Shown: positions 3,567 to 17,302 of the stretch, piece by piece | Layout: the number at the start of each line of letters is the position of its first letter | How positions within the stretch are numbered: the first letter of the stretch is position 1 | Source: Flavobacteriales bacterium | GTDB taxonomy: Bacteria; Bacteroidota; Bacteroidia; Flavobacteriales_F; PHOS-HE28 | DNA: 64,000 bases | Assembly: GCA_016788295.1 (NCBI GenBank) | Contig: JAEUSY010000030.1 | Location: forward strand, 62,001 to 126,000 | Reading direction: 5' to 3' | Notes under the pieces: model-generated | Seen by the model: the letters and a program-made list of their open reading frames with translations, nothing else | What the model was told of the DNA's origin: nothing | Database searches by the model: none | Position numbers and translations under genes: made by a program

Positions 3567-3603
3567 GGTTTTCGGGGGTTGGGTTCCGGTCAAAGGAACG
3601 ACC

Positions 3604-3621
3604 ACACCCCCCGGGGGGTGT
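3604..3621. repeat. Perfect 18-bp palindrome
   Basis: ACACCCCCC is followed directly by its reverse complement. It sits 37 bp upstream of the start of the endonuclease/exonuclease/phosphatase gene, so it could be an operator or a structured leader for that gene. Confidence 0.7.
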
Positions 3622-3830
3622 TAACGTCTTTTTCACAGGGTAGCCCCCCTTTTTATCAACGATCAGGGCGCCCAAAATGGTTGATAACCCCACCCCTCCT
3701 GCCCCATTGGCGCGCATGCCATTCCCGCTGTACCCCTTGCCAGCTGGCCGTTCGGCCCTGCCTCGGGCACGCAGCTCCACCACCTATGGACCAACGACCA
3801 ATGGCCCACGGACCGGACCGGCGTTCGCCA

Positions 3831-3989
3831 GGTGCGCGGAGCGCAAGTGGCTTTATGGTCCTTGGCAACGAAGCTGTGCGGCCTGCTAGCCTCTTGGCCT
3901 GGCCTCCGGCAAGCAGGTGTGCCACCCTGGCTTGGGCCATCGGCCATAGGCCTCTTGGTGCCCGCCATGGGTGCGCGGAGCGCAAGTGG
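3831..3989. repeat. Direct repeat pair, 20 bp identical, 139 bp apart
   Basis: The 20-mer at 3831-3850 (GGTGCGCGGAGCGCAAGTGG) recurs exactly at 3970-3989, and similarity continues loosely afterwards (a TGGCTT- or TGGTCTT-like stretch, then CTTGG). It looks like a decayed tandem duplication inside the intergenic region. Confidence 0.8.
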
Positions 3990-4102
3990 TCTTTTGGCTT
4001 CTTGGGCCGGTGGCTTTTCGGCCCGAACGGATCGGCACGTGTGCACCGTTGGGCCCGCACGCTTCCCCTTCACCTTATTCCCGCTCAAGCTTTCGCCTCC
4101 GG

Positions 4103-4120
4103 CATATCCCTTTGGATATG
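4103..4120. repeat. Short inverted repeat (7-bp arms)
   Basis: CATATCC, four bases, GGATATG. It is A/T-rich compared with its surroundings and lies about 180 bp ahead of the defence operon; it may be an operator, but there is no direct evidence. Confidence 0.4.
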
Positions 4121-4297
4121 AGGCTATTGAGCTACCATACACCCCCCCTTTTCCACAGTCGTTCTTAATAACTTCCTGCTCCGACCACGTCTTTTTCACA
4201 CCCCCCCGGATCCAACGGGCCGTTAGCTTGCGACCGCCATTGCAGCACCCCCTACGACACATTTTGGCAAAGTGGGGGTGCTATTTTGAGGCCCCGA

Positions 4298-4612
4298 ATG
4301 AGCGACCACGAACACCAGCTGCTCTCCCTCTTGACCCAGCACACCAGCCTGGGCCCCAAGCAGGCGGCCACTGCCTTGGGGTGGACCAAGGAGCAAGTGG
4401 CCCAGGCCAAGGAATCCATGGCCTCCAAAGGCCTCATCCGCCTGGGCAAGGGCGGCAGCATGCAGGTGGCCAAGGGCCAAGAAGCCGGTGTGCCACTGGC
4501 CGGTAACCTATTGGCCCCTGAAACTACAATGCCTGTGACCAAGCAACGCCGCGAAGTGGAGAGGCTTTTAGCCCACAAGCCTCCAAGCCCAACGGCCAAG
4601 ACAAGCCCATGA
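4298..4612 (+). CDS. Small winged-helix-like protein coupled to hsdM
   Basis: 104 aa, started at the ATG at 4298 (a TTG four codons upstream is less likely). Residues 3-60 resemble a winged helix: LLSLLTQHTSLGPKQAATAL, then WTKEQVAQAKESMASKGLIRL and a basic GKGGSMQVAK wing. The tail is Lys/Pro-rich. Its TGA overlaps the hsdM start codon (ATGA), so the two are probably translationally coupled. A DNA-binding protein at the head of a restriction-modification operon would be a natural controller of it, comparable in role but not in sequence to C proteins; this role is inferred. Base composition matches the GC-rich hsdM rather than the AT-richer genes further down. Confidence 0.65.
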   Translation: MSDHEHQLLSLLTQHTSLGPKQAATALGWTKEQVAQAKESMASKGLIRLGKGGSMQVAKGQEAGVPLAGNLLAPETTMPVTKQRREVERLLAHKPPSPTAKTSP

Positions 4613-6303
4613 GCACCGACAACGAACAAGCCTTCCTCCGCGAGCTCGACAAGAAGCTCTGGACCGCCGCCGACCGCCTGCGTTCCAGCCTCGATGCCGC
4701 CGTGTACAAGCATGCTGTGCTCGGCCTCATCTTCCTCAAGTACGTCAGCGACAGCTTCGAGCTGCGGCAGCAGGAAGTGGAGAAGATGCTGAAGGACCCG
4801 AAGAGCGACTTCTTCATTGATCCCAAGGATTTCAAGGCCTCTGAGATGTACGAGGCTGCGATAGCGGCCGAGCTGGAGCTGCGCGACTACTACACCCAGC
4901 AGAACGTGTTCTGGGTGCCCGCACTCGCGCGATGGAAGAATATCCAAGGGAGCGCAAAGCTCCCGCCCGGCTCCAAGATCTCCTTGGGGCCGGTACGGGC
5001 GGATGATCATCCGCCCGCGAAGGATGGCGGGCAGGGCACCTACACCATCTCTTCCCTCGGCAAGCTCATCGACGATGCGCTGGACGCCATCGAGCGCGAG
5101 AACCCCAAGCTGAAGAACGTCCTCAACAAGACCTACACCCAGCTCCAGCTCGACCCCGCGAACCTCGGCTCGCTCATCGACCTCATCGCCACCATCCCCT
5201 TCGTGCACGGCTCCTTGCACGCCAAGGACATCCTGGGCCACGTGTACGAGTACTTCCTGGGGCAGTTCGCGCTGGCCGAGGGCAAGAAGGGCGGGCAGTA
5301 CTACACGCCCAAGAGCATCGTGAGCCTCATCGTGCGCATGCTGGAACCCTACAAGGGCCGCATCTACGACCCCGCCATGGGCAGCGGTGGGTTCTTTGTA
5401 CAAAGCGAGGAGTTCATCGAGCAGTTCGGCGGCCGGCTGGGCGACATCAGCGTGTACGGCCAGGAGAGCAACCCCACCACCTGGCGGCTGGCGGCCATGA
5501 ACATGGCCATCCGCGGCATCGACTTCAACTTCGGCAAGGAGCCCGCCAACACCTTCACCAACGACCAGCACCCCGCCCTGCGCGCGGATTATGTGATGGC
5601 CAACCCGCCCTTCAACGTGAAGGAGTGGTGGGATGCGCGGCTGGAGGGCGATGCGCGTTGGGCCTACGGCACGCCCCCGCAAGGCAACGCCAACTTCGCG
5701 TGGCTGCAGCACATGCTGCACCACCTGGCGCCCAAGGGCAGCATGGCCCTGCTGCTGGCCAATGGCAGCATGAGCAGCAACACCGGCGGCGAGGGCGAGA
5801 TCCGCCGCAAGCTGGTGGAGGCCGATCTGGTGGAATGCATGGTGGCCCTGCCCGGCCAGCTCTTCACCAACACGCAGATACCAGCGTGCATCTGGTTCCT
5901 TACTAAGAACAAGAAGGGCGGCGGTGGGCGGCGCGACCGGTCAGGCGAGGTGCTCTTCATCGACGCACGGAACCTGGGCTATATGAAGGACCGCGTGCTG
6001 CGCGATTTCACGTTGGAGGACATCGAGCGGATCACCGGGGCCTTGCACAAGTGGCAAAGAGGGAAGGACCATGCGGACGTGCCCGGCTTCTGCAAAGGCG
6101 CCTCGCTGGATGAGATCACCAAGCACGATTTCGTGCTGACGCCGGGGAGGTATGTCGGGGCTGGAGAAGCTGACGACGACGGCGTTCCAATCAAACAGAA
6201 GCTAGCCGAGTTAACCGACGACCTCGAGGCACAGTTCGACGAAGCCGCACGACTCGAGAAGAAGATCAGGAAATCGCTTGAAACTCTTGTGTTCAATGAC
6301 TGA
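4609..6303 (+). CDS. hsdM: Type I restriction-modification system methyltransferase subunit HsdM
   Basis: 564 aa. The N-terminal HsdM helical domain (residues 1-140, with KYVSDSFELRQQEVEKML) precedes an N6-adenine methylase fold with the AdoMet motif DPAMGSGGFF at about residue 254 and the catalytic NPPF at about 332. HsdM pairs with HsdS to methylate adenine in a bipartite site, and with HsdR to cut unmodified DNA. Compared with the usual family pattern, where SAKLP runs almost straight into IGKLIDDA, roughly 30 extra residues (about 120-150) are present; at their centre lies a perfect 22-bp palindrome. Start overlaps the upstream regulator by 4 bp and the end overlaps hsdS by 8 bp. Confidence 0.95.
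   Translation: MSTDNEQAFLRELDKKLWTAADRLRSSLDAAVYKHAVLGLIFLKYVSDSFELRQQEVEKMLKDPKSDFFIDPKDFKASEMYEAAIAAELELRDYYTQQNVFWVPALARWKNIQGSAKLPPGSKISLGPVRADDHPPAKDGGQGTYTISSLGKLIDDALDAIERENPKLKNVLNKTYTQLQLDPANLGSLIDLIATIPFVHGSLHAKDILGHVYEYFLGQFALAEGKKGGQYYTPKSIVSLIVRMLEPYKGRIYDPAMGSGGFFVQSEEFIEQFGGRLGDISVYGQESNPTTWRLAAMNMAIRGIDFNFGKEPANTFTNDQHPALRADYVMANPPFNVKEWWDARLEGDARWAYGTPPQGNANFAWLQHMLHHLAPKGSMALLLANGSMSSNTGGEGEIRRKLVEADLVECMVALPGQLFTNTQIPACIWFLTKNKKGGGGRRDRSGEVLFIDARNLGYMKDRVLRDFTLEDIERITGALHKWQRGKDHADVPGFCKGASLDEITKHDFVLTPGRYVGAGEADDDGVPIKQKLAELTDDLEAQFDEAARLEKKIRKSLETLVFND
4996..5017. repeat. Perfect 22-bp palindrome inside hsdM
   Basis: The arm CGGGCGGATGA is followed immediately by its reverse complement. 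It is in frame, encodes part of a Gly/Pro/Asp-rich insertion (VRADDHPPA) absent from the usual HsdM pattern, and leaves the frame open. Confidence 0.85.
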
Positions 6304-7528
6304 GCGCTGGGTAGATTTCGAGCTTCACGAAATCGCTGCGCCGCAGCGTAATGCGCTTGTTGGCGGTCCGTTCGGATCCAACCTGACTACCCGGGACTTC
6401 GTCGGTGCCGGTGTACCTGTTATTCAGGGTAAGAACATGCAGGCCCGCTATATAGGGGGAGACTTTGTATTTGTGTCGAACGACAAGGCCGATGAACTGG
6501 CTGCAAACTGGGCTCGACCTGGGGATGTGATCTTTACCCAAAGAGGAACACTTGGCCAAGTGGCCCTTGTGCCAGATGGGGCCTATCCCGTATACATCAC
6601 GTCTCAAAGTCAAATGAAGCTGACTCCCAATCTGGAGTTAGCAGACCCGCTGTTCTTGTATTATCTGTTCAGATCGCCTGAACAGCAACAATACGTCTTC
6701 ACCAATGCGATTAGGGTCGGCGTACCCCATACCAATTTGGGTATTCTGAAGCGCACGCCTGTTTCACTGCCTCCTCTTGAAACGCAACGTTCCATTGCGT
6801 CCATCCTCGGCGCGCTGGATGACAAGATCGAGCTAAACCGGCGGATGAACGGCACCTTGGAGGCGCTGGCGCAGGCGGTGTTCAAGGAGTGGTTCGTGGA
6901 GGGTGGACGCCGAAGCTTCAGCGAAGGCGGCAAGGCGGAGGAGGGGTGGAAAACGATGATGTTGGATGAGGTCGCCTACTATCGGAATGGCCTAGCGCTT
7001 CAGAAGTTCCGTCCGAAGGACGGTGAAGAAGCATTGCCTGCGGTCAAGATCGCTCAAATGCGGACCGGGCTTCCTGATTCGGGGGAGTGGGCTTCGCCAA
7101 GCATCGACCCGGAGTGCATCCTAGATGACGGAGATGTGGTGTTCTCCTGGTCGGGATCACTGATGGCGATCCTTTGGTGCGGCGGCAAGGCCGCGCTGAA
7201 CCAGCACCTCTTCAAGGTCACTTCAGATAAGTTCCCGAAGTGGTTCTACTACCTGTGGACCCAGCATTATATGCCCGAGTTCCAAGGCATCGCGTCGAAC
7301 AAGGCGACGACCATGGGGCACATCAACCGGAATCACTTGAAGGTACCTGTTCCTATACCACCATTCGAACTGCTGAAGCGCGGGGATGAAGTGATCGCGC
7401 CGCTGCTTGACCGAATGGTGGCGAACAATCTTGAAACGCGAACCCTCACCGCGCTGCGTGACACGCTGCTGCCGAAGCTGATGCGGGGGGAGGTGAGGGT
7501 GAAGGCAGCGCATAAGACCGTAGCATGA
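6296..7528 (+). CDS. hsdS: Type I restriction-modification system specificity subunit HsdS
   Basis: 410 aa from the ATG at 6296, which overlaps the end of hsdM by 8 bp. The layout is classic: a first target-recognition domain (residues 1-150), a central conserved helix (ETQRSIASILGALDDKIELNRRM, then LAQAVFKEWF), a second recognition domain (about 225-370) and a C-terminal helix (ALRDTLLPKLMRGEV). HsdS sets the DNA sequence read by the HsdM and HsdR complexes; the target cannot be predicted here. A short Gly/Ser/Glu linker (GGRRSFSEGGKAEEG) after the central helix is encoded by an imperfect palindromic element. The 3' end overlaps the next gene by 4 bp. Confidence 0.93.
   Translation: MTERWVDFELHEIAAPQRNALVGGPFGSNLTTRDFVGAGVPVIQGKNMQARYIGGDFVFVSNDKADELAANWARPGDVIFTQRGTLGQVALVPDGAYPVYITSQSQMKLTPNLELADPLFLYYLFRSPEQQQYVFTNAIRVGVPHTNLGILKRTPVSLPPLETQRSIASILGALDDKIELNRRMNGTLEALAQAVFKEWFVEGGRRSFSEGGKAEEGWKTMMLDEVAYYRNGLALQKFRPKDGEEALPAVKIAQMRTGLPDSGEWASPSIDPECILDDGDVVFSWSGSLMAILWCGGKAALNQHLFKVTSDKFPKWFYYLWTQHYMPEFQGIASNKATTMGHINRNHLKVPVPIPPFELLKRGDEVIAPLLDRMVANNLETRTLTALRDTLLPKLMRGEVRVKAAHKTVA
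6907..6929. repeat. Imperfect palindromic element inside hsdS
   Basis: CGCC and GGCG outer arms enclose GAAGCTTCAGCGAA, which can form a second short stem (GCT/AGC). It encodes RRSFSEGG in the linker between the central conserved region and the second recognition domain. From memory this peptide string recurs in unrelated proteins of Bacteroidota metagenomes; that was not checked here. Confidence 0.55.
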
Positions 7529-9237
7529 GGATATCGCGCATACAGATCGACAACTTCAGATCGGTTCGCCAGCTTGACTTGGAGGTGCCCGAGGTCCTAT
7601 GCTTAGTAGGTCCGAACAATGCTGGCAAAAGCAACATTCTCCAAGCTCTTCATCGTGTTCTCGGCGGTGGATGGCTCAGCGTGAACTCCTTTGAGGAGTC
7701 GGATGTATACGCGCACAAGACGGATTCAGATATCTCGATCAAGGTCTCTTTCGAACCCGCCATACCCTATAGGAAGCTGAAGGATGCTCCTACCGTAGAT
7801 GTGCGAACCCTTTCATTCGATTACACCCGGTATAAGGTTGGGGCCGATAAAGGAACACGTCGCTTCGAGCAGAAGTGCCTTGGGGATGACGGTGAGTCAC
7901 CCACGGTATGGGCAGGCGTGCCCAAGAAAGGCGTGCCGCCAAAGTTTGAAAGACTGGTGAACATCCCGGCAGAAGTGCGCGATGGTGTCCCGCTGATCTA
8001 CATAGGCACCAATCGTTCGCTCAAGGATCACTTGCCGGGTGCGCGCTTTTCGATGCTTCGACAGCTGTTCACCGACATCGACAAGGAACTGAGCGACCCA
8101 GGGCAGACTGTCAAGGTTCGGAAAGCCGATGGGACGGAACACGATGTACAACGTTTGGAGCGCTTCCGACAGTTGATGGAGCATGCGGTCAAACTCTTGC
8201 GGACGAAGTCTTTCGATGATCTAGAGACTTCGATAAAGCAGAATGCGCTCAGGCAATTGGGGCTTGACCCGATACTTGACGCTGACAAGCTCGACCTCTT
8301 CTTCTCTCCCTTTAGCACCATGGACTTTTACAAGTCTTTGGATCTGCGGGTACGTGAATGCGACTATTCTGTGAGCGCAACGGAACTTGGTGAGGGCATT
8401 CAGAACGCCTTGGTTCTATCGATCCTACAGGCCTTTGAGGAGCGGAGAAAGAAGGGAGCGATCCTATTGATTGAAGAACCCGAGATGTTCTTGCATCCAC
8501 AAATGCAACGGTCACTGTACAAGACCATTCGGGAGATCGCATTGACGAATCAGGTCATCTATACTACTCACTCGCCGCATTTTGTGTCGGTCCCCAACTA
8601 TCACGAGGTCGCGTTGGTGCGAAAGGAAAGCGATGGTACCGCTGTTCGAAAGTCCGACTTGCCAACCAATGACAAGTTCAAGGAGAAGCTCATCAAGGAA
8701 CTCGACCCCGAAAGGAATGAACTCTTCTTCGCCAAGCGACTCTTACTGGTCGAAGGAGACACGGAGAAACTTGTCCTTCCGGAGTATGCCAAGCAACTCG
8801 GGCTTGACCTGGACCGTGAGGGCGCAACCATCGTTGAAGTTGGAGGGAAGCGTAACCTACCTGACTTCGCGAGCATTGCCATTTCATTCGGCATCCCCAC
8901 GGGCATTGTCTATGACGAGGACGCCGGCGACTTCGACAACAAGCGGGAAGAGGAGAAGGAGTTCAACAAGGCCTTGGACGGACTAGCACGTCAAGATGGA
9001 ACCGTACAGGTTTGGTGCTTCAAGAAGAAATACGAGGACCATTTGAGGGCAGCACTTACAGAGCCTGTCTACCAGAAGCTCTGCCAGAAGTTCGCCCAAA
9101 CCGGCAAGCCAACGAAGGCGCGTTTGATCGCCATGGAACCAGGTCTGACGATTCCAGAACCAGTGCCCGCCATACTGCGCTGGCTTGCTGGCAAGAGCCC
9201 CGCCGGACACGCTTCAACTACAACCTCTACAGCATGA
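7525..9237 (+). CDS. OLD-family ATPase with TOPRIM nuclease domain
   Basis: 570 aa. The N-terminal ABC-type ATPase has Walker A GPNNAGKS at residues 29-36, Walker B LLIEEPEMFLHP at about 313, and the H-loop TTHSPHFV. A TOPRIM domain follows, with LLVEGDTEKLVLP at about residues 406-418 (catalytic Glu) and the acidic YDEDAGD at about 463. This architecture is that of OLD nucleases such as P2 Old and GajA. No UvrD-like GajB helicase is nearby, so a Gabija system is not supported; a class 1 OLD is the better fit. The start overlaps the hsdS stop (ATGA) and its own stop overlaps the next small gene the same way, so it is firmly part of the hsd operon. Confidence 0.88.
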   Translation: MRISRIQIDNFRSVRQLDLEVPEVLCLVGPNNAGKSNILQALHRVLGGGWLSVNSFEESDVYAHKTDSDISIKVSFEPAIPYRKLKDAPTVDVRTLSFDYTRYKVGADKGTRRFEQKCLGDDGESPTVWAGVPKKGVPPKFERLVNIPAEVRDGVPLIYIGTNRSLKDHLPGARFSMLRQLFTDIDKELSDPGQTVKVRKADGTEHDVQRLERFRQLMEHAVKLLRTKSFDDLETSIKQNALRQLGLDPILDADKLDLFFSPFSTMDFYKSLDLRVRECDYSVSATELGEGIQNALVLSILQAFEERRKKGAILLIEEPEMFLHPQMQRSLYKTIREIALTNQVIYTTHSPHFVSVPNYHEVALVRKESDGTAVRKSDLPTNDKFKEKLIKELDPERNELFFAKRLLLVEGDTEKLVLPEYAKQLGLDLDREGATIVEVGGKRNLPDFASIAISFGIPTGIVYDEDAGDFDNKREEEKEFNKALDGLARQDGTVQVWCFKKKYEDHLRAALTEPVYQKLCQKFAQTGKPTKARLIAMEPGLTIPEPVPAILRWLAGKSPAGHASTTTSTA

Positions 9238-9497
9238 TTGAAATCCGAACCAAGCTCTTGAGCAAGCCGAGCGGCGCGAATATTGGAGATTCCATCACGG
9301 TAGCGGCCGCGAACGCAGCCACTGAAGGAATGGCCGACTCGATCAAGAAACATGTGCGCGACAAGTCATGCGCTCAGCATAAGCCTGGGCGGGGGACCAT
9401 CACGTTGATCGCGGACAAGCAGAAGATGTTCACGGTGCAGAAGTCTGGCTTCTGCTGCAAGGACTTCGAGAACAGCATTGTGATCGAAACAAAGTGA
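9234..9497 (+). CDS. 87-aa hypothetical protein coupled to the OLD nuclease gene
   Basis: Starts at the ATG overlapping the OLD stop codon (ATGA). The protein is small and basic, begins MIEIRTKLLSKPSG, contains an Ala-rich stretch (ITVAAANAATEGMA) and has three Cys residues (KSCAQH and GFCCKDF). There is no signal peptide, membrane segment or recognised domain. Tight coupling implies it acts with, or controls, the OLD-type nuclease. It could also be the first gene of the following TIR/ThsA group, which starts 33 bp later. Function unknown. Confidence 0.65.
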   Translation: MIEIRTKLLSKPSGANIGDSITVAAANAATEGMADSIKKHVRDKSCAQHKPGRGTITLIADKQKMFTVQKSGFCCKDFENSIVIETK

Positions 9498-9530
9498 GCA
9501 CGGGGTTAATGCACGAAGCGTGAGTATCAG

Positions 9531-10178
9531 ATGGCGAAGTATGAACCATATGACGATTGGGAGCCGGTCTCCATCTTCCTAAGTCACGAAGCGAAGTATG
9601 GCCCGCAGATCATGGCCCTGAAGGAGGAGCTTGAGTACTACGGTACTTCATGCTTTGTGGCGCACGAGGACATAGCACCTTCACGGGTCTGGCTGAAGGA
9701 GATCAATCGGTCCATCAAGGAATGTGATGCGCTTGTGGCCTTGCTCACTCCTGACTTTCACCAGAGCCTTTGGACAGATCAAGAGATCGGGATCGCCTTG
9801 GGCCGAAAGAAGCCAGTCATTCCCGTAAGCCTGGGTACCATACCTTATGGCTTCATGGGTGACATACAAGCTTTGAAGGGTGACCTGAACCACCCCAGGG
9901 AGCTTGCGGAAGCCATTGTGCGCGTTCTACTGGAGCATGATGTTACGTGCGCCAGTATGCAGCAAGCACTCGTTGATGCACATTACAACGCGTCAAGCTT
10001 CATGACATCGCGAAGGACGTCAAAGGTGCTTTCGTCGCTTGATGAGATTACACAGGAGCAATACGATCTGCTGTATGACGCCAACGAAGGGAATGACCAA
10101 GTGTATGACGCCGGTGGCGTCTACGACAGCATGGAAGAGTTCTTGGAGAATGTTGAAATCGTAGAGGTAGAGGAGTAG
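9531..10178 (+). CDS. thsB: TIR-domain protein, candidate Thoeris ThsB (first of four)
   Basis: 215 aa. Residues 11-100 form a TIR fold: VSIFLSHEA in the first strand, SCFVAHEDIAPSRVW in the BB-loop region, CDALVALLTPDF, and WTDQEIGIALG carrying the expected catalytic Glu85. The C-terminal 100 residues are acidic and not recognised. In type I Thoeris, TIR proteins sense infection and convert NAD+ to a cyclic ADP-ribose signal that activates ThsA. This gene is the only TIR gene upstream of thsA (53-bp gap). It belongs to a different TIR subgroup from the two tandem copies downstream. Confidence 0.85.
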   Translation: MAKYEPYDDWEPVSIFLSHEAKYGPQIMALKEELEYYGTSCFVAHEDIAPSRVWLKEINRSIKECDALVALLTPDFHQSLWTDQEIGIALGRKKPVIPVSLGTIPYGFMGDIQALKGDLNHPRELAEAIVRVLLEHDVTCASMQQALVDAHYNASSFMTSRRTSKVLSSLDEITQEQYDLLYDANEGNDQVYDAGGVYDSMEEFLENVEIVEVEE

Positions 10179-10231
10179 CAACCCTCATGGCGTGAATCAC
10201 GAGTGCGCGGACCAATTCCAATCCCCATCAA

Positions 10232-11680
10232 ATGACAATGCGTGAAGACATAGACTCGGGAACGTTCATCCGGGATTATCTCAAGGCCCTACACAGTAAG
10301 AACGCGGCAGCATTCATTGGTGCTGGCTTATCCATCCCAGCTGGCTATTTGGATTGGAAAGGGCTGCTCGATGATGCGATCAAAGACCTACGCCTTGATC
10401 CGGACAAAGAGCAGGATCTCGTGACCGTCGCCCAGTACTACATAAACCAAACGGGAAGCAAGACAGGGTTGACGCAGAGAATCGTGAGCGAGTTCAAACG
10501 CTATGGTTCACCTCAGAGAAGCCACCTCATCCTTGCTGAGCTTCCCCTTCAGGTCTATTGGACAACCAACTACGACCAACTGATAGAGCAAGCTCTCAGG
10601 CAGGTGAAGAAGACTCCTGATGTTAAGTACAATGCCAAACAACTACGGGTCACGAGCCCTGATAGAGACGTGACGGTTTATAAGATGCATGGTGATGTTG
10701 ACCTAGCGGAGGACGCTGTGATAAGTAAGGATGACTATGAGCGCTACCCCCGGAAAATGGAGGCCTTCGTTCAGGCCTTGAGTGGAGACTTCATTGAGCG
10801 CACCTTCCTTTTTCTGGGGTTGAGCTTCACCGATCCCAATATCGACTACATCCTTGGCCGGATCCGCTCAGGACACACCGGCGATCCTCGGCAGCACTAT
10901 TGCATAATGAAGAGGGTTGCCAAGGAACCGGGCCAAGCCGCTGGTACTTTGAACTATGACGAGCTCCGGCAACAGTACTTCATCAAAGACCTGAAGCGGT
11001 TCGGCATTCTAACTGTGCTCGTTGACACGTACCCGGAAATAACATCATTACTAGAGAAGGTTGCCACACAGTATAAACGAACGTCTGTGTTCATTTCAGG
11101 AGCCGCTCATGAGTATGGTGCTTGGACTCGGGACAACGCCCTTCAGTTCACACATGACCTGAGCTACGCTCTGGCCACGGCCCGCAATCGGATCATCACA
11201 GGGTTCGGCGTTGAGATCGGCAGTGCGGTGATCAACGGCACCTTGGCCTATTTGGACAACGCCGGCAAAACCGTTACAGATGAAGATCTGGTCATGCGCC
11301 CATTCCCCCAGGTCATAACCGGCGGCATTGATCGCGCCGCAAAATGGACAGCCTACAGAAAGGCCATGTTGGCGTATGCAGGAATCGCAGTCTTCATTTT
11401 CGGCAACAAGCTTGAAGGGGGAACGACAGTCCTGTCGAATGGTGTTGACGAGGAGTTCACCATAAGCAGTGCCCAAGGCATTAAACCTATAGCGGTTGGC
11501 GCAACTGGCTTTATGGCCGAAGAAATATGGAAGAAAGTGCAAGGGGACTGGGACACCTATTTTCCTGGAGCATCGCCTGCGTTCAAAACTGACTACGCAA
11601 TTCTAGGGGACAAGTCAAAGACCCCAGCCGAACTCATTCAAGCCGTGATGCGCTTGGTCAAGGAACTTCAGAAGAACTGA
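10232..11680 (+). CDS. thsA: Thoeris effector ThsA: SIR2 NADase fused to SLOG domain
   Basis: 482 aa, close to the size of known type I ThsA. Residues 22-275 are a SIR2-like NADase: AAFIGAGLSIPAG in the Rossmann start, TTNYDQ with Asn113 and YKMHGDV with His153, which correspond to the catalytic Asn/His pair of characterised ThsA. Residues 284-482 are the SLOG signal-binding domain (VFISGAAHEYGAW, ITGFGVEIGSAVI, VFIFGN). On binding the cyclic ADP-ribose made by the TIR proteins, such effectors tetramerise or open and deplete NAD+, stopping phage growth. It is followed after 2 bp by a second TIR gene. There is no transmembrane or macro domain, so this is type I rather than type II Thoeris. Confidence 0.93.
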   Translation: MTMREDIDSGTFIRDYLKALHSKNAAAFIGAGLSIPAGYLDWKGLLDDAIKDLRLDPDKEQDLVTVAQYYINQTGSKTGLTQRIVSEFKRYGSPQRSHLILAELPLQVYWTTNYDQLIEQALRQVKKTPDVKYNAKQLRVTSPDRDVTVYKMHGDVDLAEDAVISKDDYERYPRKMEAFVQALSGDFIERTFLFLGLSFTDPNIDYILGRIRSGHTGDPRQHYCIMKRVAKEPGQAAGTLNYDELRQQYFIKDLKRFGILTVLVDTYPEITSLLEKVATQYKRTSVFISGAAHEYGAWTRDNALQFTHDLSYALATARNRIITGFGVEIGSAVINGTLAYLDNAGKTVTDEDLVMRPFPQVITGGIDRAAKWTAYRKAMLAYAGIAVFIFGNKLEGGTTVLSNGVDEEFTISSAQGIKPIAVGATGFMAEEIWKKVQGDWDTYFPGASPAFKTDYAILGDKSKTPAELIQAVMRLVKELQKN

Positions 11681-11682
11681 AC

Positions 11683-12195
11683 ATGGCAATCAAGCAGTCG
11701 GAAATCCTGGCATTCTCAAATCGGGCCTCCACACCTTCTGCCTCGTTGCTTTGGGAGGCGAAGCGACAAGGAAGGCAAACGGCCTTTCTATGCCACAGTC
11801 ACAAAGACAGGGAGCTTGCGAAATGCGTGCAGGCCTTCTTGGCCTCGGTTGGTTTTGACCTGTACATCGACTGGGAGGATGCGAACATGCCCAACCACCC
11901 GAATCAAGAGACGGCAGCGCGCATTCAATCAAAGATTGAGGAACTGCATTGGTTCCTTTACCTGGCTACCGAGAACTCAGCGCCCAGCCGCTGGTGTCCT
12001 TGGGAAATTGGGTACGCTGATGGAGTAAAGCCTACCGAACGCATTCTCATTCTGCCGACCGAAAAGAACTACACGACCTATGGTGCGGAATACCTCGGCC
12101 TATATCGGCACATCGACGCCCGTTCTGTAGGCGTGCCAGTCGTAGTTCGAAATTTGGATGGCACCATCACGGAGATGAAGTCAATGCGAGTTTGA
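11683..12195 (+). CDS. thsB: TIR-domain protein, candidate Thoeris ThsB (second)
   Basis: 170 aa. After about 30 N-terminal residues comes a TIR domain: TAFLCHSHKDRELA, GFDLYIDWEDANMP, WFLYLATENSAPSRWCPWEIGYADG with the putative catalytic Glu108. It starts 2 bp after the thsA stop, so co-translation is likely. The sequence differs clearly from the first TIR gene and from the two that follow; having several sequence-divergent ThsB proteins around one ThsA is a known Thoeris arrangement, thought to widen the range of phage triggers. Confidence 0.86.
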   Translation: MAIKQSEILAFSNRASTPSASLLWEAKRQGRQTAFLCHSHKDRELAKCVQAFLASVGFDLYIDWEDANMPNHPNQETAARIQSKIEELHWFLYLATENSAPSRWCPWEIGYADGVKPTERILILPTEKNYTTYGAEYLGLYRHIDARSVGVPVVVRNLDGTITEMKSMRV

Positions 12196-12209
12196 CTTTG
12201 TATGGACCA

Positions 12210-12707
12210 ATGGCCAGACGAGTATTTTACAGCTTCCATTACAAGGCGGACAACTGGAGAGCGTCGCAGGTGAGAAACATGGGTGTAGTATCAGGAAACC
12301 GACCAGCTACCGACAATGACTGGGAAGCCGTCAAGCGCGGAGGTGACCCTGCTATCGAACGATGGATTCGAACTCAATTGCACGGTAAGTCCTGCACGGT
12401 TGTGCTGATTGGGGAAAAGACGGCGGGTAGGAAGTGGATCACGTTCGAGATAAAGGAGAGCTGGAGACAAGGCATGGGAGTCCTCGGCATTCACGTTCAC
12501 AAGCTCAAGGATCGACTCGGCCGAACGGGTTCTGAAGGCTCAAGTCCCTTTACCGGGTTGAGCGTTGACGGCGTTAACCTGTCTTCGGTGCTGCCTACGC
12601 ATGACCCGGCTTGGTTCCTTGGTAGCAGTACCGACGCTTATCGCACAATTGCTGCGCGACTACCGAATTGGATCGAAGAGGCCATTCGGATCCGATCCGA
12701 ACACTGA
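12210..12707 (+). CDS. thsB: TIR-like (DUF1863-type) protein, candidate Thoeris ThsB (third)
   Basis: 165 aa from the ATG at 12210, 14 bp after the previous stop; a TTG 18 bp upstream would overlap that stop but reads through unconserved residues. Features are RVFYSFHYKADNWRASQVRN at the N-terminus, GKSCTVVLIGEKTAGRKWI, and FEIKESW with putative catalytic Glu80. This is the TIR subgroup of the founding B. cereus ThsB. It is a close paralogue of the next gene: 57 of the first 101 positions match in a hand alignment without gaps. Confidence 0.87.
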   Translation: MARRVFYSFHYKADNWRASQVRNMGVVSGNRPATDNDWEAVKRGGDPAIERWIRTQLHGKSCTVVLIGEKTAGRKWITFEIKESWRQGMGVLGIHVHKLKDRLGRTGSEGSSPFTGLSVDGVNLSSVLPTHDPAWFLGSSTDAYRTIAARLPNWIEEAIRIRSEH

Positions 12708-12730
12708 AAAACCACCAATAAGTACCCATC

Positions 12731-13240
12731 ATGGCAAAGCGCAAGGTTTTCTACAGCTTCCATTTCGCCAACGACTTCTGGCGGACACAACAAGTTCGGA
12801 ACATCGGTGTCATCGAAGGTGATGCACCTGTTTCTAAGAACGACTGGGAAGAAGTCAAGAAGAAGGGGGACGCCAACATTGAGAAGTGGATTGAAGATCA
12901 CTTAAGTGGCAAGTCATGTTTGGTTGTGCTCATCGGCAGCGAAACTGCCAGCAGGAGGTGGATCAAGCATGAGATCAAGAGAGCGTGGTCATTGGGGAAG
13001 GGAGTTGTGGGCGTTCGCATCCATAATCTCAAGGATCAGGATAGCAAACAGAGTACGGCAGGCAGTAATCCCTTCTCCACATTCACGCTGTGCGATGGCA
13101 AGGTTCAGATGGATAGTGTGGTTGACGTCTACAACCCACCATACTCAACAAGCACGGACGTTTACAACTACATCGCGAACAACATCGAGACCTGGATCGA
13201 GAATGCGATCAAGACTCGGAATGACTTCAAGTGTCCTTAG
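12731..13240 (+). CDS. thsB: TIR-like (DUF1863-type) protein, candidate Thoeris ThsB (fourth)
   Basis: 169 aa, paralogous to the preceding gene (KVFYSFHFANDFWRTQQVRN, GKSCLVVLIGSETASRRWI, HEIKRAW with putative catalytic Glu81). The gap to the third copy is 23 bp. Its stop lies 26 bp before the chosen hsdR start, and an alternative GTG start for hsdR overlaps it. Divergence between the copies is spread along the whole protein, so this is an old duplication or two separate acquisitions rather than a recent copy. Confidence 0.87.
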   Translation: MAKRKVFYSFHFANDFWRTQQVRNIGVIEGDAPVSKNDWEEVKKKGDANIEKWIEDHLSGKSCLVVLIGSETASRRWIKHEIKRAWSLGKGVVGVRIHNLKDQDSKQSTAGSNPFSTFTLCDGKVQMDSVVDVYNPPYSTSTDVYNYIANNIETWIENAIKTRNDFKCP

Positions 13241-13266
13241 GAGGGGCCGTTACCTTGCCTTTCCGC

Positions 13267-16200
13267 ATGATCACCGAATCCCAGCTCGAGCAACTCGCCC
13301 TCTCCTGGTTCCAGGAGGTCGGCTGGGCGCATGCCGCTGGACCGGACATCGCCCCAGATGGCCCGGTACCCGAGCGCACGAGCTACAACGAGGTGGTGCT
13401 GCGCGAGCGCTTGCGTGAAGCCTTGGAACGCCTGAATCCACAACTGCCGTCCGAGGCCATCGCGAAGGCCCTGCACGCAGCCACCACGGTGAACGAGCCC
13501 ACCTTGGTGAAGCGCAACCAGGCCTTCCACCGCCTGCTGCTGGATGGCGTGCCGGTGGATTGGCGCGAGGGTCGGGATCCCGGCTCAGGGCCGGGATACG
13601 ACCACGCGCGACTGCTAGACTTCCAAAACCCGGACAACAACGACTTCCTGATCGTTGACCAGTTCACCATCACGGGAACGAAGCAGCCGAGAAGGCCCGA
13701 CCTCATCGCCTTCGTGAACGGCCTGCCGCTGGCGGTGATCGAGCTGAAGAACCCGGTGGACGAGGACGCCGACGTGTGGCATGCTTACCACCAGCTCGCC
13801 ACCTACAAGGAGCAGATCGACCCGCTCTTCACCAGCAACGTCGCGCTGGTGGTGAGCGATGGGTTCAACGCGCGCATCGGCAGCCTCAACGCCACGCCCG
13901 AGTGGTACATGCCCTGGCGCGTGGTGAAGCACGAGGACGATAAGCCCAGCGTGGAGTTCGAGCTGGAAACGCTGGTACGCGGCTTCTTCGACCGCGCGCT
14001 GCTGCTGGACTACCTGCGCTACTTCATCCTCTTCGAGAAGGACGGCGACCGGCTGATCAAGAAGATCGCGGGCTACCATCAGTTCCACGGGGTGCGCGAG
14101 GCGGTGAAGGCCACGCTGATCGCCAGTCGGGCACCGGATAAGGGCATCGTTGCAGAGCCGCGCGCCACCTACGGCCGCGAAGTGGAACCAGGCAGCCGCA
14201 AGGCCGGGGTTTTCTGGCACACCCAGGGCAGCGGCAAGAGCATCAGCATGGCCTGCTACGCGGGCAAGCTGTTGCAGCAGCCCGAGATGCAGAACCCCAC
14301 CCTGGTGGTGGTCACCGACCGCAACGACCTGGATGGCCAGCTCTTCCAGCAGTTCAGCAACGCGCAGGACCTGCTGAAGCAACAGCCCGTGCAAGTGGAG
14401 AGCCGCGACGAGCTGCGCGAGAAACTGGCGGCCGTGCAGAGCGGAGGCATCTTCTTCACCACGGTGCAGAAGTTCGGCCTGCAGGAGGGTGAGGGCGCGC
14501 ACCCCGTGCTGTGCGAGCGCAGCAACGTGGTGGTGATCAGCGACGAGGCGCACCGCAGCCAGTACGGCCAGAAGGGCCGCCTGAACACAAAGACCGGCGA
14601 GTACGTCTTCGGCTTTTCCAAGTACATGCGCGATGCGCTGCCTAACGCCAGTTTCATCGGCTTCACGGGCACGCCCATCAGCACCAAGGACAAGGACACG
14701 CGCCGCGTCTTCGGTGATTACGTGAGCATCTACGACATCCAGGATGCCGTGGACGACAAGGCCACCGTGCCCATCCTCTACGAGAGCCGCCTGGCCAAGC
14801 TGGACGTGAACGCCGCGCAGATCGAGCAGCTGAACAAGGAGGTGGATGAGGTGGTGGAGGACGAGGAGAGCGTGCTGCTGCGCGAGAAGACCAAGAGCAA
14901 GTGGGCCGAGCTGGCGAAGCTGGTCGGGGCCAAGCCTCGCCTGGAACAGGTCGCGGCCGACCTCGTGAAGCATTTCGAGACGCGCACCGCTGCGTTGGAG
15001 GGCAAGGCCATGATCGTGTGCATGAGCCGCCAGATCTGTGTGGACCTCTTCAACGAGTTGGTGAAGCTGCGTCCGCAATGGGCGGGCACCCTGGAGCCCG
15101 GCAAAGGCTACAGCGCCAGCGATGGTGCCCTGCGCGTGGTGATGACCGGCAACGCCACGGACGAGGCGCAGCTCCAACCGCACCTCTATACCAAGCAACA
15201 GCGCAAGGAGCTGGAGAAGCGCTTCAAGAAGCCGGACGATACGCTGCGCCTGGTTATCGTGCGCGACATGTGGCTCACCGGCTTTGACGTGCCGTGCTGC
15301 CACACCATGTACGTGGACAAACCGATGCACGGTAGCAACCTGATGCAGGCCATCGCCCGTGTGAACCGCGTGTTCGCCGACAAGCCCGGGGGGCTGGTGG
15401 TGGACTACATCGGCATCGCCAGCGATCTGCGCAAGGCGATCAAGGAATACACCGATGCGCAGGGCAAGGGCGATCCCGCCGCGCAGGTGCAGGAAGCCTA
15501 CAAGCAGTTGCTCGGCAAGCTTGGCGTGGTGCGCGAGCTCTTCCGCGGTTTCGACTACAGCGCCTACGCCACCAAGCCCCTACCCCTCCTGGTGCCCGCC
15601 ACCAACCACATCCTGGCTACGGATGAGCGGAAGAAACACTTCCTGGATGAGATGGCGGCCGTGAGCGTGGCCTACTCCTTCTGCAACAACCTGGACGAGG
15701 TGGAACCGCTGAAGAAGGAGATCGCCTTCTTCGAAGCCATCAAGGCGGTGATCATGAAGAACACCGTGGTGGACAAGCGCCTGAGCGAAACGCAGAAGAA
15801 CAGCCTGCTGAAGCACATCCTGGACAATGCCGTGGTGGCCGAGGGTGTCACCGACGTGTTCGCACTGGCGGGGCTGGACAAGCCGAACATCGGCCTACTG
15901 GACGCGAAGTTCCTGGACGACCTGCGCCACCTGCCGCAGAAGAACTTCGCGGTGGAGCTGCTGGCCCGCCTGCTGCGCGACGAGATCAAAGCACGCAGTC
16001 GCAACAATGTGGTCCAAGAACGCACCTACAGCGAGCGCCTGCTGGAAAGCCTGCGCCGCTACCATAACCGTGCGATCGAGAGCGCGCAGGTGATCGAGGA
16101 ACTGATCAACATGGCCAGGGACCTCAAGTCCGCACTGGAGCGCAACGAGCACCTGGGCCTGAACACGGACGAGATCGCCTTCTACGACGCGCTGGCCGCC

Positions 16201-16440
16201 AAGTCCGAGGTGCTCCTGGCCATGGGAGATGAGACCTTGAAGAAGCTGGCCGTGGAGCTCACCGAGCGCATGCGCAAGAGCACCACCGTGGACTGGCAGC
16301 ACCGCGAGAGCGTGCGCGCCAGCATGCGGCTGATGATCCGGCAACTACTGAAGAAGTACAAGTACCCACCCGAGGGCCAGGAGGACGCCGTTGCCTTGGT
16401 GATCAAGCAGGCGGAGGTGCTGGCGGAAGGGTGGGGGTGA
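13267..16440 (+). CDS. hsdR: Type I restriction endonuclease subunit HsdR
   Basis: 1057 aa from the ATG of MITESQLEQLALSWF; GTG (13231) and TTG (13255) starts are possible, the TTG having AGGAGG about 10 bp upstream. The N-terminal PD-(D/E)XK nuclease has D145 (RRPDLIAF) and E159-L-K161 (VIELKNP). The superfamily 2 motor follows: HTQGSGKSISM at about 320, ISDEAHRSQYG at about 425, GFTGTPI, and LIVRDMWLTGFDVPC; the C-terminal third is helical. It translocates and cuts DNA lacking HsdM methylation. In this locus it is separated from hsdS by six other genes. Base composition (40 of 60 G/C at 14281-14340) matches hsdM, unlike the genes between. Confidence 0.94.
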   Translation: MITESQLEQLALSWFQEVGWAHAAGPDIAPDGPVPERTSYNEVVLRERLREALERLNPQLPSEAIAKALHAATTVNEPTLVKRNQAFHRLLLDGVPVDWREGRDPGSGPGYDHARLLDFQNPDNNDFLIVDQFTITGTKQPRRPDLIAFVNGLPLAVIELKNPVDEDADVWHAYHQLATYKEQIDPLFTSNVALVVSDGFNARIGSLNATPEWYMPWRVVKHEDDKPSVEFELETLVRGFFDRALLLDYLRYFILFEKDGDRLIKKIAGYHQFHGVREAVKATLIASRAPDKGIVAEPRATYGREVEPGSRKAGVFWHTQGSGKSISMACYAGKLLQQPEMQNPTLVVVTDRNDLDGQLFQQFSNAQDLLKQQPVQVESRDELREKLAAVQSGGIFFTTVQKFGLQEGEGAHPVLCERSNVVVISDEAHRSQYGQKGRLNTKTGEYVFGFSKYMRDALPNASFIGFTGTPISTKDKDTRRVFGDYVSIYDIQDAVDDKATVPILYESRLAKLDVNAAQIEQLNKEVDEVVEDEESVLLREKTKSKWAELAKLVGAKPRLEQVAADLVKHFETRTAALEGKAMIVCMSRQICVDLFNELVKLRPQWAGTLEPGKGYSASDGALRVVMTGNATDEAQLQPHLYTKQQRKELEKRFKKPDDTLRLVIVRDMWLTGFDVPCCHTMYVDKPMHGSNLMQAIARVNRVFADKPGGLVVDYIGIASDLRKAIKEYTDAQGKGDPAAQVQEAYKQLLGKLGVVRELFRGFDYSAYATKPLPLLVPATNHILATDERKKHFLDEMAAVSVAYSFCNNLDEVEPLKKEIAFFEAIKAVIMKNTVVDKRLSETQKNSLLKHILDNAVVAEGVTDVFALAGLDKPNIGLLDAKFLDDLRHLPQKNFAVELLARLLRDEIKARSRNNVVQERTYSERLLESLRRYHNRAIESAQVIEELINMARDLKSALERNEHLGLNTDEIAFYDALAAKSEVLLAMGDETLKKLAVELTERMRKSTTVDWQHRESVRASMRLMIRQLLKKYKYPPEGQEDAVALVIKQAEVLAEGWG
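13577..13597. repeat. Short hairpin element inside hsdR
   Basis: ATCCCGGC, a five-base loop, GCCGGGAT. It encodes a Gly/Pro-rich stretch (RDPGSGPGYD) in a surface-loop position between VPVDWR and LLDFQNP, where related HsdR proteins appear to carry a slightly shorter Gly/Asp linker. Confidence 0.5.
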
Positions 16441-16480
16441 AAGCCGGAAGGAAAAAAGAATAGCTTGCCTGGAACAAGTC

Positions 16481-17224
16481 ATGGCTGATCCCAAGACCAT
16501 CGAAATACTCGGCGCTTTAGCTGCCGGGTGCGATCCCGAGACCGGGGAAGAGTTTGAACCCACCCACGTGCTGCGTAGGAAGCAGGTCACCAAGGCGTTG
16601 AACGATGCATTGAAAGCACTCGGCGGTGCGCCAACGAAAAGTCCTCGGCGTCCGATCATCAAGAGCGAATACTTCAGCGGCGCACTTTTCAATCGGATCA
16701 GTGCGAAGAGTAGGCATGCGTTGGCCGAGCGTGTGCTTCAACTTCCGATGACCTATCCCTTGGATCAAACGAATTCGCGCGTTGTTCGGACCGAGCACGC
16801 CCGCTCCCAGGAGCCATGGCGTGCTGCCGAACAGGACCTACTGGCCAAGGTGCTTCCCAATACGAACGACCTGAAGTTCCTGAGCATCGTGTTCCAGCGC
16901 AGCGAGAAAGCCATACAGATGGAGGCCCGGCGCTTGATGGCCGAACGACAGGACCTCCGCAAGGCACTTGCCATGGAGCCGGAACCACCGCTACAACCTG
17001 CTTCGGTGAACGAGGAAAAGGCCAAATCCTATTCAGTGGCACTGATCAGGGAGCAACACAGCATGGCCTACGCGCCATGGACAACCGAAGATGATGAAAA
17101 GTTGGAGCGCCTGTTCTGCGAAGGCAAGAAGCCCAAGCAGCTCGCTGTAGTCTTCGGCAGGCAACCCAGTGCCATTACCTCACGCATTAAAAAGCTGGAG
17201 CTCCGGGAGAAGTACCGGCAATAG
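16481..17224 (+). CDS. Myb/SANT-like helix-turn-helix protein, hypothetical
   Basis: 247 aa. The N-terminus (ILGALAAGCDPETGEEF, then HVLRRKQVTKALNDALKAL) is a motif seen ahead of various DNA-acting proteins. The middle has two charged helical stretches around NDLKFLSIVFQRSEKAIQMEARRLMAE, itself HTH-like. The C-terminal 55 residues resemble a Myb/SANT HTH: YAPWTTEDDEKLERLFCEG, KQLAVVFGRQPSAITSRIKKLEL. It probably binds DNA. It starts 40 bp after hsdR and may belong to the same transcript. No enzymatic motif was seen. Confidence 0.7.
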   Translation: MADPKTIEILGALAAGCDPETGEEFEPTHVLRRKQVTKALNDALKALGGAPTKSPRRPIIKSEYFSGALFNRISAKSRHALAERVLQLPMTYPLDQTNSRVVRTEHARSQEPWRAAEQDLLAKVLPNTNDLKFLSIVFQRSEKAIQMEARRLMAERQDLRKALAMEPEPPLQPASVNEEKAKSYSVALIREQHSMAYAPWTTEDDEKLERLFCEGKKPKQLAVVFGRQPSAITSRIKKLELREKYRQ

Positions 17225-17302
17225 TGCTCCGGGCAAATGAAGCGCGAACATCTCGGAACATCCGTCATTCAACGTCTCGAACGACCACCCGAAAACAGGA
17301 CC

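Follow-up and report, generated by a model that had tools for sequence, protein, structure and literature searches.

The window analysed here, a 64,000-nt stretch of Flavobacteriales bacterium DNA, carries between positions 4286 and 16440 a run of genes that are all encoded on the + strand, in the order small open reading frame (ORF), hsdM, hsdS, OLD, an 87-aa gene, TIR1, thsA, TIR2, TIR3, TIR4 and hsdR (Table 1). The locus is probably a type I restriction-modification (R-M) operon with swap-in defence cargo at the hsdS/hsdR junction, where OLD, the small gene and a TIR protein accompany a complete type I Thoeris cassette made up of thsA with three thsB genes, and where the ThsA belongs to a clade found repeatedly at this position. 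The original prediction had recognized a type I Thoeris system here, and the gene positions, the common direction and the arrangement of one TIR gene upstream and three downstream of thsA are as it described them, with gaps of 53 bp or less. OLD and the 87-aa gene intervene between hsdS and TIR1.

The thsA product matches the PADLOC ThsA model PDLC00407 over its full length (607 bits) as well as Pfam STALD (215 bits) and SIR2_2, and it aligns with the BcThsA structure 6LHX at E 1e-132. Its Asn113 and His153, which had already been picked out from the sequence, align with Asn112 and His152, reported as the NADase residues of BcThsA (PMC7272460), and both are invariant across 10 aligned ThsA. 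In the SLOG messenger pocket, the BcThsA residues R371, K388 and E403 (PMC10022894) correspond to R376, K393 and E408 of the window protein. The AlphaFold2 model of ThsA (pLDDT 70.6) returned ThsA entries at Foldseek ranks 1-12, and its SLOG part superimposes on the 3'cADPR-bound domain 7uxs with a TM of 0.92. The check proposed earlier for the SLOG pocket and SIR2 residues thus found them conserved, in a predicted fold that matches BcThsA, and the gene at 10232-11680 is, as judged from sequence, a genuine type I ThsA with conserved predicted NADase and messenger-pocket residues.

All four TIR genes had been assigned to Thoeris, and for three of them the assignment stands: TIR2, TIR3 and TIR4 match ThsB models at 7e-60 or better and keep the catalytic Glu, and solved relatives support TIR2 (8btn) and TIR4 (8wcf, 6lhy) as ThsB. 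In the alignment of TIR4 to a solved relative the ThsB 'ryEi' pairs with 'khEi'; in a second alignment ThsB residue 85 falls on the neighbour of the catalytic Glu, which was taken to reflect construct numbering. TIR1, which reaches 9e-6 at best with the ThsB models, probably belongs to another family.

The nesting of Thoeris between hsdS and hsdR, likewise noted at the outset, recurs across phyla in one ThsA clade. In a single scan covering 84,980 species genomes, 524 relatives of ThsA were found; the analysis took in the 80 closest to the window (loci are denoted by L numbers and genomes by G numbers), and the ThsA tree comprised 91 sequences: these 80 genome loci, 8 plasmid loci, 1 viral contig, L002 and the window. 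It is a quick tree with SH-aLRT values and no bootstrap, and it includes two long rows (L039, L040). The window ThsA falls in a clade of 11 (SH-aLRT 100) with L041-L049 and L074, drawn from six phyla. When nesting is defined as hsdS upstream and hsdR downstream of thsA on the same strand, and a locus is counted as evaluable if at least 4 kb is available on both sides (59 loci), five of the six evaluable clade loci are nested (window, L041, L045, L048 and L049) compared with 0 of 53 others (Fisher 1.2e-6, uncorrected for relatedness; 2 changes by parsimony). Every locus of the tree in which the order hsdS-thsA-hsdR was seen belongs to this clade, in four phyla and with two unrelated hsd families. 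Two further members lie on short contigs whose content is consistent with nesting, namely L043 (hsdS end, ThsA, TIRs and hsdR on 5 kb) and L044 (hsdM, hsdS, TIR and ThsA up to the contig end). In all four loci where thsA directly follows hsdS (L043, L045, L048 and L049), the hsdS stop and the thsA start overlap as ATGA. The nearest ThsA relative of the window is that of L041, a Flavobacteriales bin, and nesting occurs in this second species of the window's genus (L041/G416, whose sequences match in features and in their spacing) as well as in other phyla; the arrangement is therefore, on sequence grounds, not an accident of the window genome, and the idea of chance neighbours in one bin was rejected on the same observation.

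Table 1. Genes of the window locus, with their positions and the matches on which each assignment is based.
Feature	Position	Strand	Evidence
Small ORF, 108 aa, overlaps hsdM	4286..4612	+	Pfam HTH_67 E 0.0086, under cut-off; weak helix-turn-helix similarity
hsdM, type I DNA methyltransferase	4609..6303	+	Pfam N6_Mtase 2e-109, HsdM_N; motifs DPAMGSG, NPPF
hsdS, specificity subunit (start codon provisional)	6278..7528	+	Pfam Methylase_S; family match only
OLD-family ATPase/TOPRIM nuclease, slot cargo	7525..9237	+	Pfam AAA_15 4e-36, OLD-like_TOPRIM 8e-20
87-aa orphan gene, overlaps OLD stop	9234..9497	+	ATGA overlap at 9234-9237
TIR1, TIR family mostly without ThsA; conserved Glu85	9531..10178	+	Pfam TIR_2 1e-15
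thsA, SIR2-SLOG (STALD) NADase effector	10232..11680	+	PADLOC PDLC00407, Pfam STALD and SIR2_2
TIR2, ThsB of TIR_2 class; Glu108	11683..12195	+	PDLC00419 7e-60; 8btn E 3e-16
TIR3, ThsB of DUF1863 class; Glu86	12192..12707	+	PDLC00433 3e-62; Pfam ThsB_TIR 4e-25
TIR4, ThsB of DUF1863 class; Glu81	12731..13240	+	PDLC00433 2e-75; 8wcf E 9e-51; 6lhy E 2e-15
hsdR, type I restriction subunit (start moved from 13231)	13267..16440	+	TIGR00348 593 bits

From the ORF coordinates, 53 bp separate TIR1 from thsA, the widest gap within the cargo, followed by 2 bp between thsA and TIR2, a 4-bp overlap of TIR2 and TIR3, and 23 bp between TIR3 and TIR4. Stop and start codons overlap as ATGA at hsdS/OLD and at OLD/87-aa gene, and the latter overlap, at 9234-9237, places the 87-aa gene at 9234-9497. 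DNA homology of the window hsdR to two relatives, L041 and L153, begins at 13267/13268, so the gene most likely starts at the ATG at 13267 and is separated from TIR4 by a 26-bp gap rather than overlapping it. The start-stop overlaps and the short gaps inside the cargo suggest that the cargo genes are likely expressed together; a scan of 3600-17300 for sigma-70 promoters and terminators gave no more matches than shuffled sequence, and the Bacteroidota-type promoter pattern had 0 matches at the locus. The small ORF at the upstream end may be an operon regulator candidate, in the place that RptR holds in E. coli. The expected sequence motifs of HsdM, HsdR and OLD are intact. No relative of the 87-aa gene was found among the loci compared except copies of the window locus, and for OLD a single further close relative was found at E 1e-40 in 385 Bacteroidota genomes, with none in a plasmid search at the same threshold. 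The exact gene order of the window, for which a search of other genomes had been proposed, was seen in no other fetched locus.

Turnover of the cargo is apparent within the genus, which was sampled by 45 genomes including the window's own. HsdR relatives at E 1e-50 are present in 16 of these (23 match rows, representing 21 genes), and 21 slots were examined, comprising 19 fetched regions, the window and L041. In 17 of the 21 loci hsdS and hsdR could be assessed on one strand (L152, L153, L166 and L170 were left out), and all but one of the 17 have hsdS-hsdR spacing of at least 900 bp, the exception being L168 with none. Of the 13 slots in which one or more cargo ORFs were scanned, 10 gave a clear match to a PADLOC defence family: Thoeris/OLD in the window, Thoeris, GmrSD and others in L041, HerA in L154, nucleotide cyclases with GmrSD in L155, PDC-S39 with GmrSD in L156, SoFic in L157, GmrSD-like Orf5/HEC-06 in L158, HEC-05 in L159, GajB-like with Orf5/HEC-06 in L161, and PDC-M19A in L162. 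GmrSD-like genes are thus recurrent among the slots, the L169 slot gave weak partial matches only, and the single ORF tested in each of L160 and L164 gave no family match; the slot ORFs of L163, L165 and L167 were left out of these scans, together with single ORFs elsewhere such as the 219-aa frame adjoining hsdR in L153. The ThsA clade itself occurs in 2 of the 45 genomes, the window's and G416. L160 is a second type I hsd locus of the window's own genome (G000:C5:13000-27000), with an HsdR about 34-41% identical to that of the window, a 5.8-kb hsdS-hsdR slot and, in it, the tested 449-aa cargo frame that matches no Pfam or PADLOC family.

The hsd genes that flank the nested cassettes fall into two families. 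In the first, the window and L041 share 74% identity in HsdM and 78% in HsdR; the second, represented by L044, L045, L048 and L049, has HsdM identities of 70-90% and, for the three members having HsdR, HsdR identities of 74-79%, and the HsdR fragment that is all L043 retains is 50-56% identical to this family. Between the two families HsdM and HsdR are 25-30% identical, and ThsA 50-58%. The identities of TIR, ThsA and Hsd proteins are, at the sequence level, out of step across the nested loci: L044 and L048 have 90% identical HsdM but 57% identical ThsA, L048 and L049 have 81% identical ThsA but 33% identical TIRa, and ThsA identity is 52% both for L043-L049, whose TIRa are 82-83% identical, and for L043-L048, whose TIRb are 82% identical. 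In Verrucomicrobiota the HsdR of the second family is found in 4 of 276 genomes at E 1e-150, one being the query's, and the other three hsd loci (L202, L203 and L204) have different frames ahead of hsdR; the ThsA clade occurs in 1 of 288 genomes of the phylum, which is the query genome itself.

Composition separates the same components. The GC3 values in the window are 0.87 for hsdM and 0.89 for hsdR, compared with 0.66 for hsdS, 0.58-0.65 for OLD, the TIR genes and thsA, and 0.74 for the 87-aa gene, and the contrast between hsdM/hsdR and hsdS/cargo is seen likewise in L041, L045, L048 and L049. In G422 (L153), an hsdR start 85% identical in DNA to that of the window lies downstream of a gene for a DUF4062/HATPase protein, on a short contig without hsdS. 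The original prediction's suggestion that the Hsd and Thoeris genes are inherited as one composite unit is not supported in that form, given the different upstream genes in G422, the GC3 contrast and the non-parallel TIR, ThsA and Hsd identities, and a fixed inherited unit was rejected on the first and last of these.

Traces of the hsd genes themselves are present at cargo borders in some relatives. Each of the 21 slots was compared with the 3' 200 bp of its own hsdS or the 5' 300 bp of its own hsdR, and the best of 20 shuffles served as reference. Four clear remnants, well above that reference, were found in three slots (L041, L043 and L156), all four at gene junctions. In L041 the 74 bp immediately ahead of thsA, after an inserted DUF4145 gene, are an hsdS tail, the frame of which ends by overlapping a possible start of thsA as ATGA; the same slot has 37 bp matching the hsdR start (84%), and these follow the GmrSD gene. 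In L043 a 202-bp copy of the hsdR start, at 89%, sits between the TIRa gene and that of a PD-(D/E)XK protein, and in L156 a 33-bp stretch across the start codon of hsdR (94%) comes immediately after a 176-aa frame. The L041 Thoeris-GmrSD block thus has an hsdS-tail remnant on one side and an hsdR-head remnant on the other, as though an earlier hsdS-Thoeris-GmrSD-hsdR operon had grown outward in both directions. Nothing clear was found in the other 18 slots, the slightly elevated repeats of L154, L157, L158 and L165 being left uncounted. Such marks may reflect integration by recombination at hsd ends; similar ones would also result if an hsd gene lying in between had been deleted. A tentative extension of this reading, which we hold to be possible but somewhat doubtful, is that the hsdS 3' and hsdR 5' ends may act as recombination seams at which incoming defences with a short copy of an end integrate and leave a remnant. 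Type I R-M operons would in this way accumulate unrelated defences as growing cassette arrays, coupled to hsdS by start-stop overlaps, and one ThsA clade would have become resident in them across phyla.

Several observations weigh against the interpretation of the locus as an R-M operon with exchangeable cargo and a resident ThsA clade. Four clade members (L042, L046, L047 and L074) are not between hsdS and hsdR: thsA is preceded by an Eco57I/DrmMI-type methylase in L074 and by a Prok-E2/ThiF/JAB protein in L042, L046 and L047 have no hsd match but are each short on one side, and L042 and L046 have no hsd match in about 10 kb upstream, with downstream sequence covering just 2.3 and 1.4 kb. The tree covers the 80 nearest of 524 ThsA loci, and the HsdR model misses some families (it missed L035, which has an annotated hsdR, and L051), so that 0 of 53 may be an undercount; this undercount is limited by the requirement of the nested order for an upstream hsdS, which the models used detect on the same strand outside the clade only in L051, L069, L077, L086 and L087, in each of which hsdR precedes thsA. 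Metagenome bins are the source of many loci, with contigs that are short in some cases (5 kb in L043), and the phylum labels of such loci need caution. ThsA and TIR GC3 is below that of hsdM/hsdR also in the non-nested L069, L077, L086 and L087, so the contrast speaks for separate histories and not for the slot as such, and the remnant test found no hsd remnant in the slot of the window itself.

The sequences show the gene identities, the conserved residues, the nested clade, the turnover of cargo and the hsd-end remnants of relatives; activity, triggers, co-transcription and recombination at hsd ends are inferred. HsdMSR would restrict unmodified DNA first; where a phage escapes restriction, ThsB would sense a phage product and make a cyclic ADP-ribose isomer, which would bind the SLOG pocket of ThsA and cause the SIR2 domain to destroy NAD+ and so halt the infected cell. 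For the cargo, the R-M operon would provide transcription, translational coupling and a transfer route. Such an order of action, with restriction first and killing as the fallback, is a plausible hypothesis. In S. aureus, ThsB1 is reported to bind a phage capsid protein and to recruit ThsB2 (PMC12578639); both TIR classes of the window are present in 8 of 10 clade loci and in 32 of 79 others, and since loci with both classes are common, a two-class ThsB sensor is also possible in the window.

An alternative, which we regard as unlikely, is that the nested Thoeris guards the Hsd complex and responds to phage inhibition of restriction, in the manner of PrrC in EcoprrI; nesting would then reflect physical and functional coupling. 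The PrrC gene is described as sitting in a type IC hsd locus and its product as being activated upon inhibition of the enzyme (PMC12707154, PMC2610378), and the window resembles this arrangement in that Thoeris is encoded inside the hsd operon. The nested ThsA moreover all fall in a single clade, with a start-stop overlap between hsdS and thsA where the two genes adjoin. However, linkage to hsd is not constant, as clade members L042 and L046 have no detected upstream hsd gene, the slot accepts many unrelated systems, the same ThsA clade is paired with two hsd families that are just 25-30% identical, and in S. aureus and Streptococcus it is capsid proteins of phages that are described as triggering ThsB (PMC12578639).

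The notion of an ordinary defence island, in which Thoeris and R-M are neighbours by chance clustering and nesting is meaningless, is already disfavoured and we consider it improbable. Defence genes do cluster generally, the slot holds many cargos, and there are non-nested Thoeris loci adjoining type I R-M, with hsdR directly upstream of thsA in L039, L051 (hsdM-hsdS-hsdR-thsA by Pfam), L069, L077, L086 and L087; together with the hsd genes at greater distance in L035 and L098, these indicate that Thoeris is associated with type I R-M in more than one arrangement. Chance clustering nevertheless fits poorly with nesting that is limited to one clade across phyla in this sample, with the start-stop overlaps, with the use of the same slot in two hsd families, and with hsd-end remnants at cargo borders. 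That the SIR2 and TIR genes are not Thoeris but some other SIR2 or TIR defence, a thought prompted by TIR1 not being a standard ThsB, has a negligible probability and was rejected on the full-length ThsA model match, the BcThsA alignment with its conserved catalytic and pocket residues, the fold match and the adjacent ThsB-class TIRs.

Compared with the type I Thoeris systems of B. cereus MSX-D12 and S. aureus (ThsA-B1-B2), the window system has the same effector domains, the same catalytic and pocket residues and the same design of one effector with several TIR sensors, but it is nested in an hsd operon, has a ThsA of a separate clade and combines three ThsB with an extra TIR of another family. 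Single defences nested between hsdS and hsdR or in hsd loci are already in print, one by one. DarTG2 is reported between hsdS and hsdR in the RptR island of E. coli, where one repressor acts on the island promoter and whose authors regard the site as a potential recombination hotspot (PMC12255303); this is a foreign defence unit in the identical slot of a type I R-M operon, although the cargo is a toxin-antitoxin pair and not Thoeris, and the small upstream ORF of the window is a regulator candidate only. In Vibrio cholerae VPI-2, TgvAB is described as residing within the type I R-M operon and as acting independently of HsdR cleavage (PMC11411939); it shares with the window the placement of defence genes within such an operon, but is a modification-dependent nuclease rather than a signalling system. 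Abortive genes nested in hsd loci are represented by PrrC of EcoprrI and by the rlo genes of Campylobacter (PMC2610378, PMC12707154); PrrC answers EcoprrI inhibition, whereas the window ThsA clade is not constantly hsd-linked and such coupling is putative. The nearest parallel to the hsd-end remnants at cargo borders is RloC of G. kaustophilus, reported beside an hsdR relic (PMC12707154/PMC2610378).

Neither Thoeris inside an hsd operon nor hsd-end remnants bordering cargo were seen to be reported in the literature searched, which was mainly open access and for most papers was covered at the level of search listings. The present analysis adds slot turnover at the level of a genus and a Thoeris clade tied to the slot across phyla. 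The same nesting in several phyla suggests that restriction operons are docking sites for other defences, with Thoeris as a swappable cassette. The hsd gene-end remnants may represent a concrete, testable route by which operons collect defences, and inspection of the hsdS-hsdR gap offers a search rule for finding new systems.

The TIR1 family, whose Glu is invariant among 10 aligned members, is present in 10 of 390 Bacteroidota genomes at E 1e-10, the window genome included, and relatives were fetched from 9 of the 10 other Bacteroidota places. Only one of these nine has a ThsA nearby (L182, about 1.5 kb away). In L183 (G274:C16, about 3.1-10.8 kb), the order is hsdM-hsdS-TIR1 homologue-241 aa ORF-hsdR without ThsA, with an HsdR match of 651 bits and an hsd family that differs from the window's; the family can thus nest in the hsd slot on its own and could be a separate defence. 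In L185 a TIR1 relative is next but one to a type IIG enzyme, the other six fetched relatives have neither ThsA nor hsd genes by the models used, and, among the 6 plasmid relatives found, the three inspected show no annotated SIR2 gene within 6-7 kb. TIR1 is, by sequence comparison, probably a member of a separate TIR family that is mostly found without ThsA. Elsewhere in the window genome (G000:C55:66730-67416) is another SIR2-type protein, a 1225-aa frame with a weak ThsA-model match (7e-10), which is perhaps a DSR-type defence.

Seven viral loci have ThsA relatives at 41-44% identity, and no hsd match was obtained in them with the models used. On one viral contig (IMGVR_UViG_3300044948_000910; L032/L195), ThsA and two TIRs lie directly behind large genes that by look are DNA methylase-like and ATPase-like, and Thoeris may accordingly be nested in other modification-based systems too. 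At the edge of the window, positions 1-263 form a tandem array of a 21-bp repeat (x12, 76% matches) that reads as a repetitive peptide.

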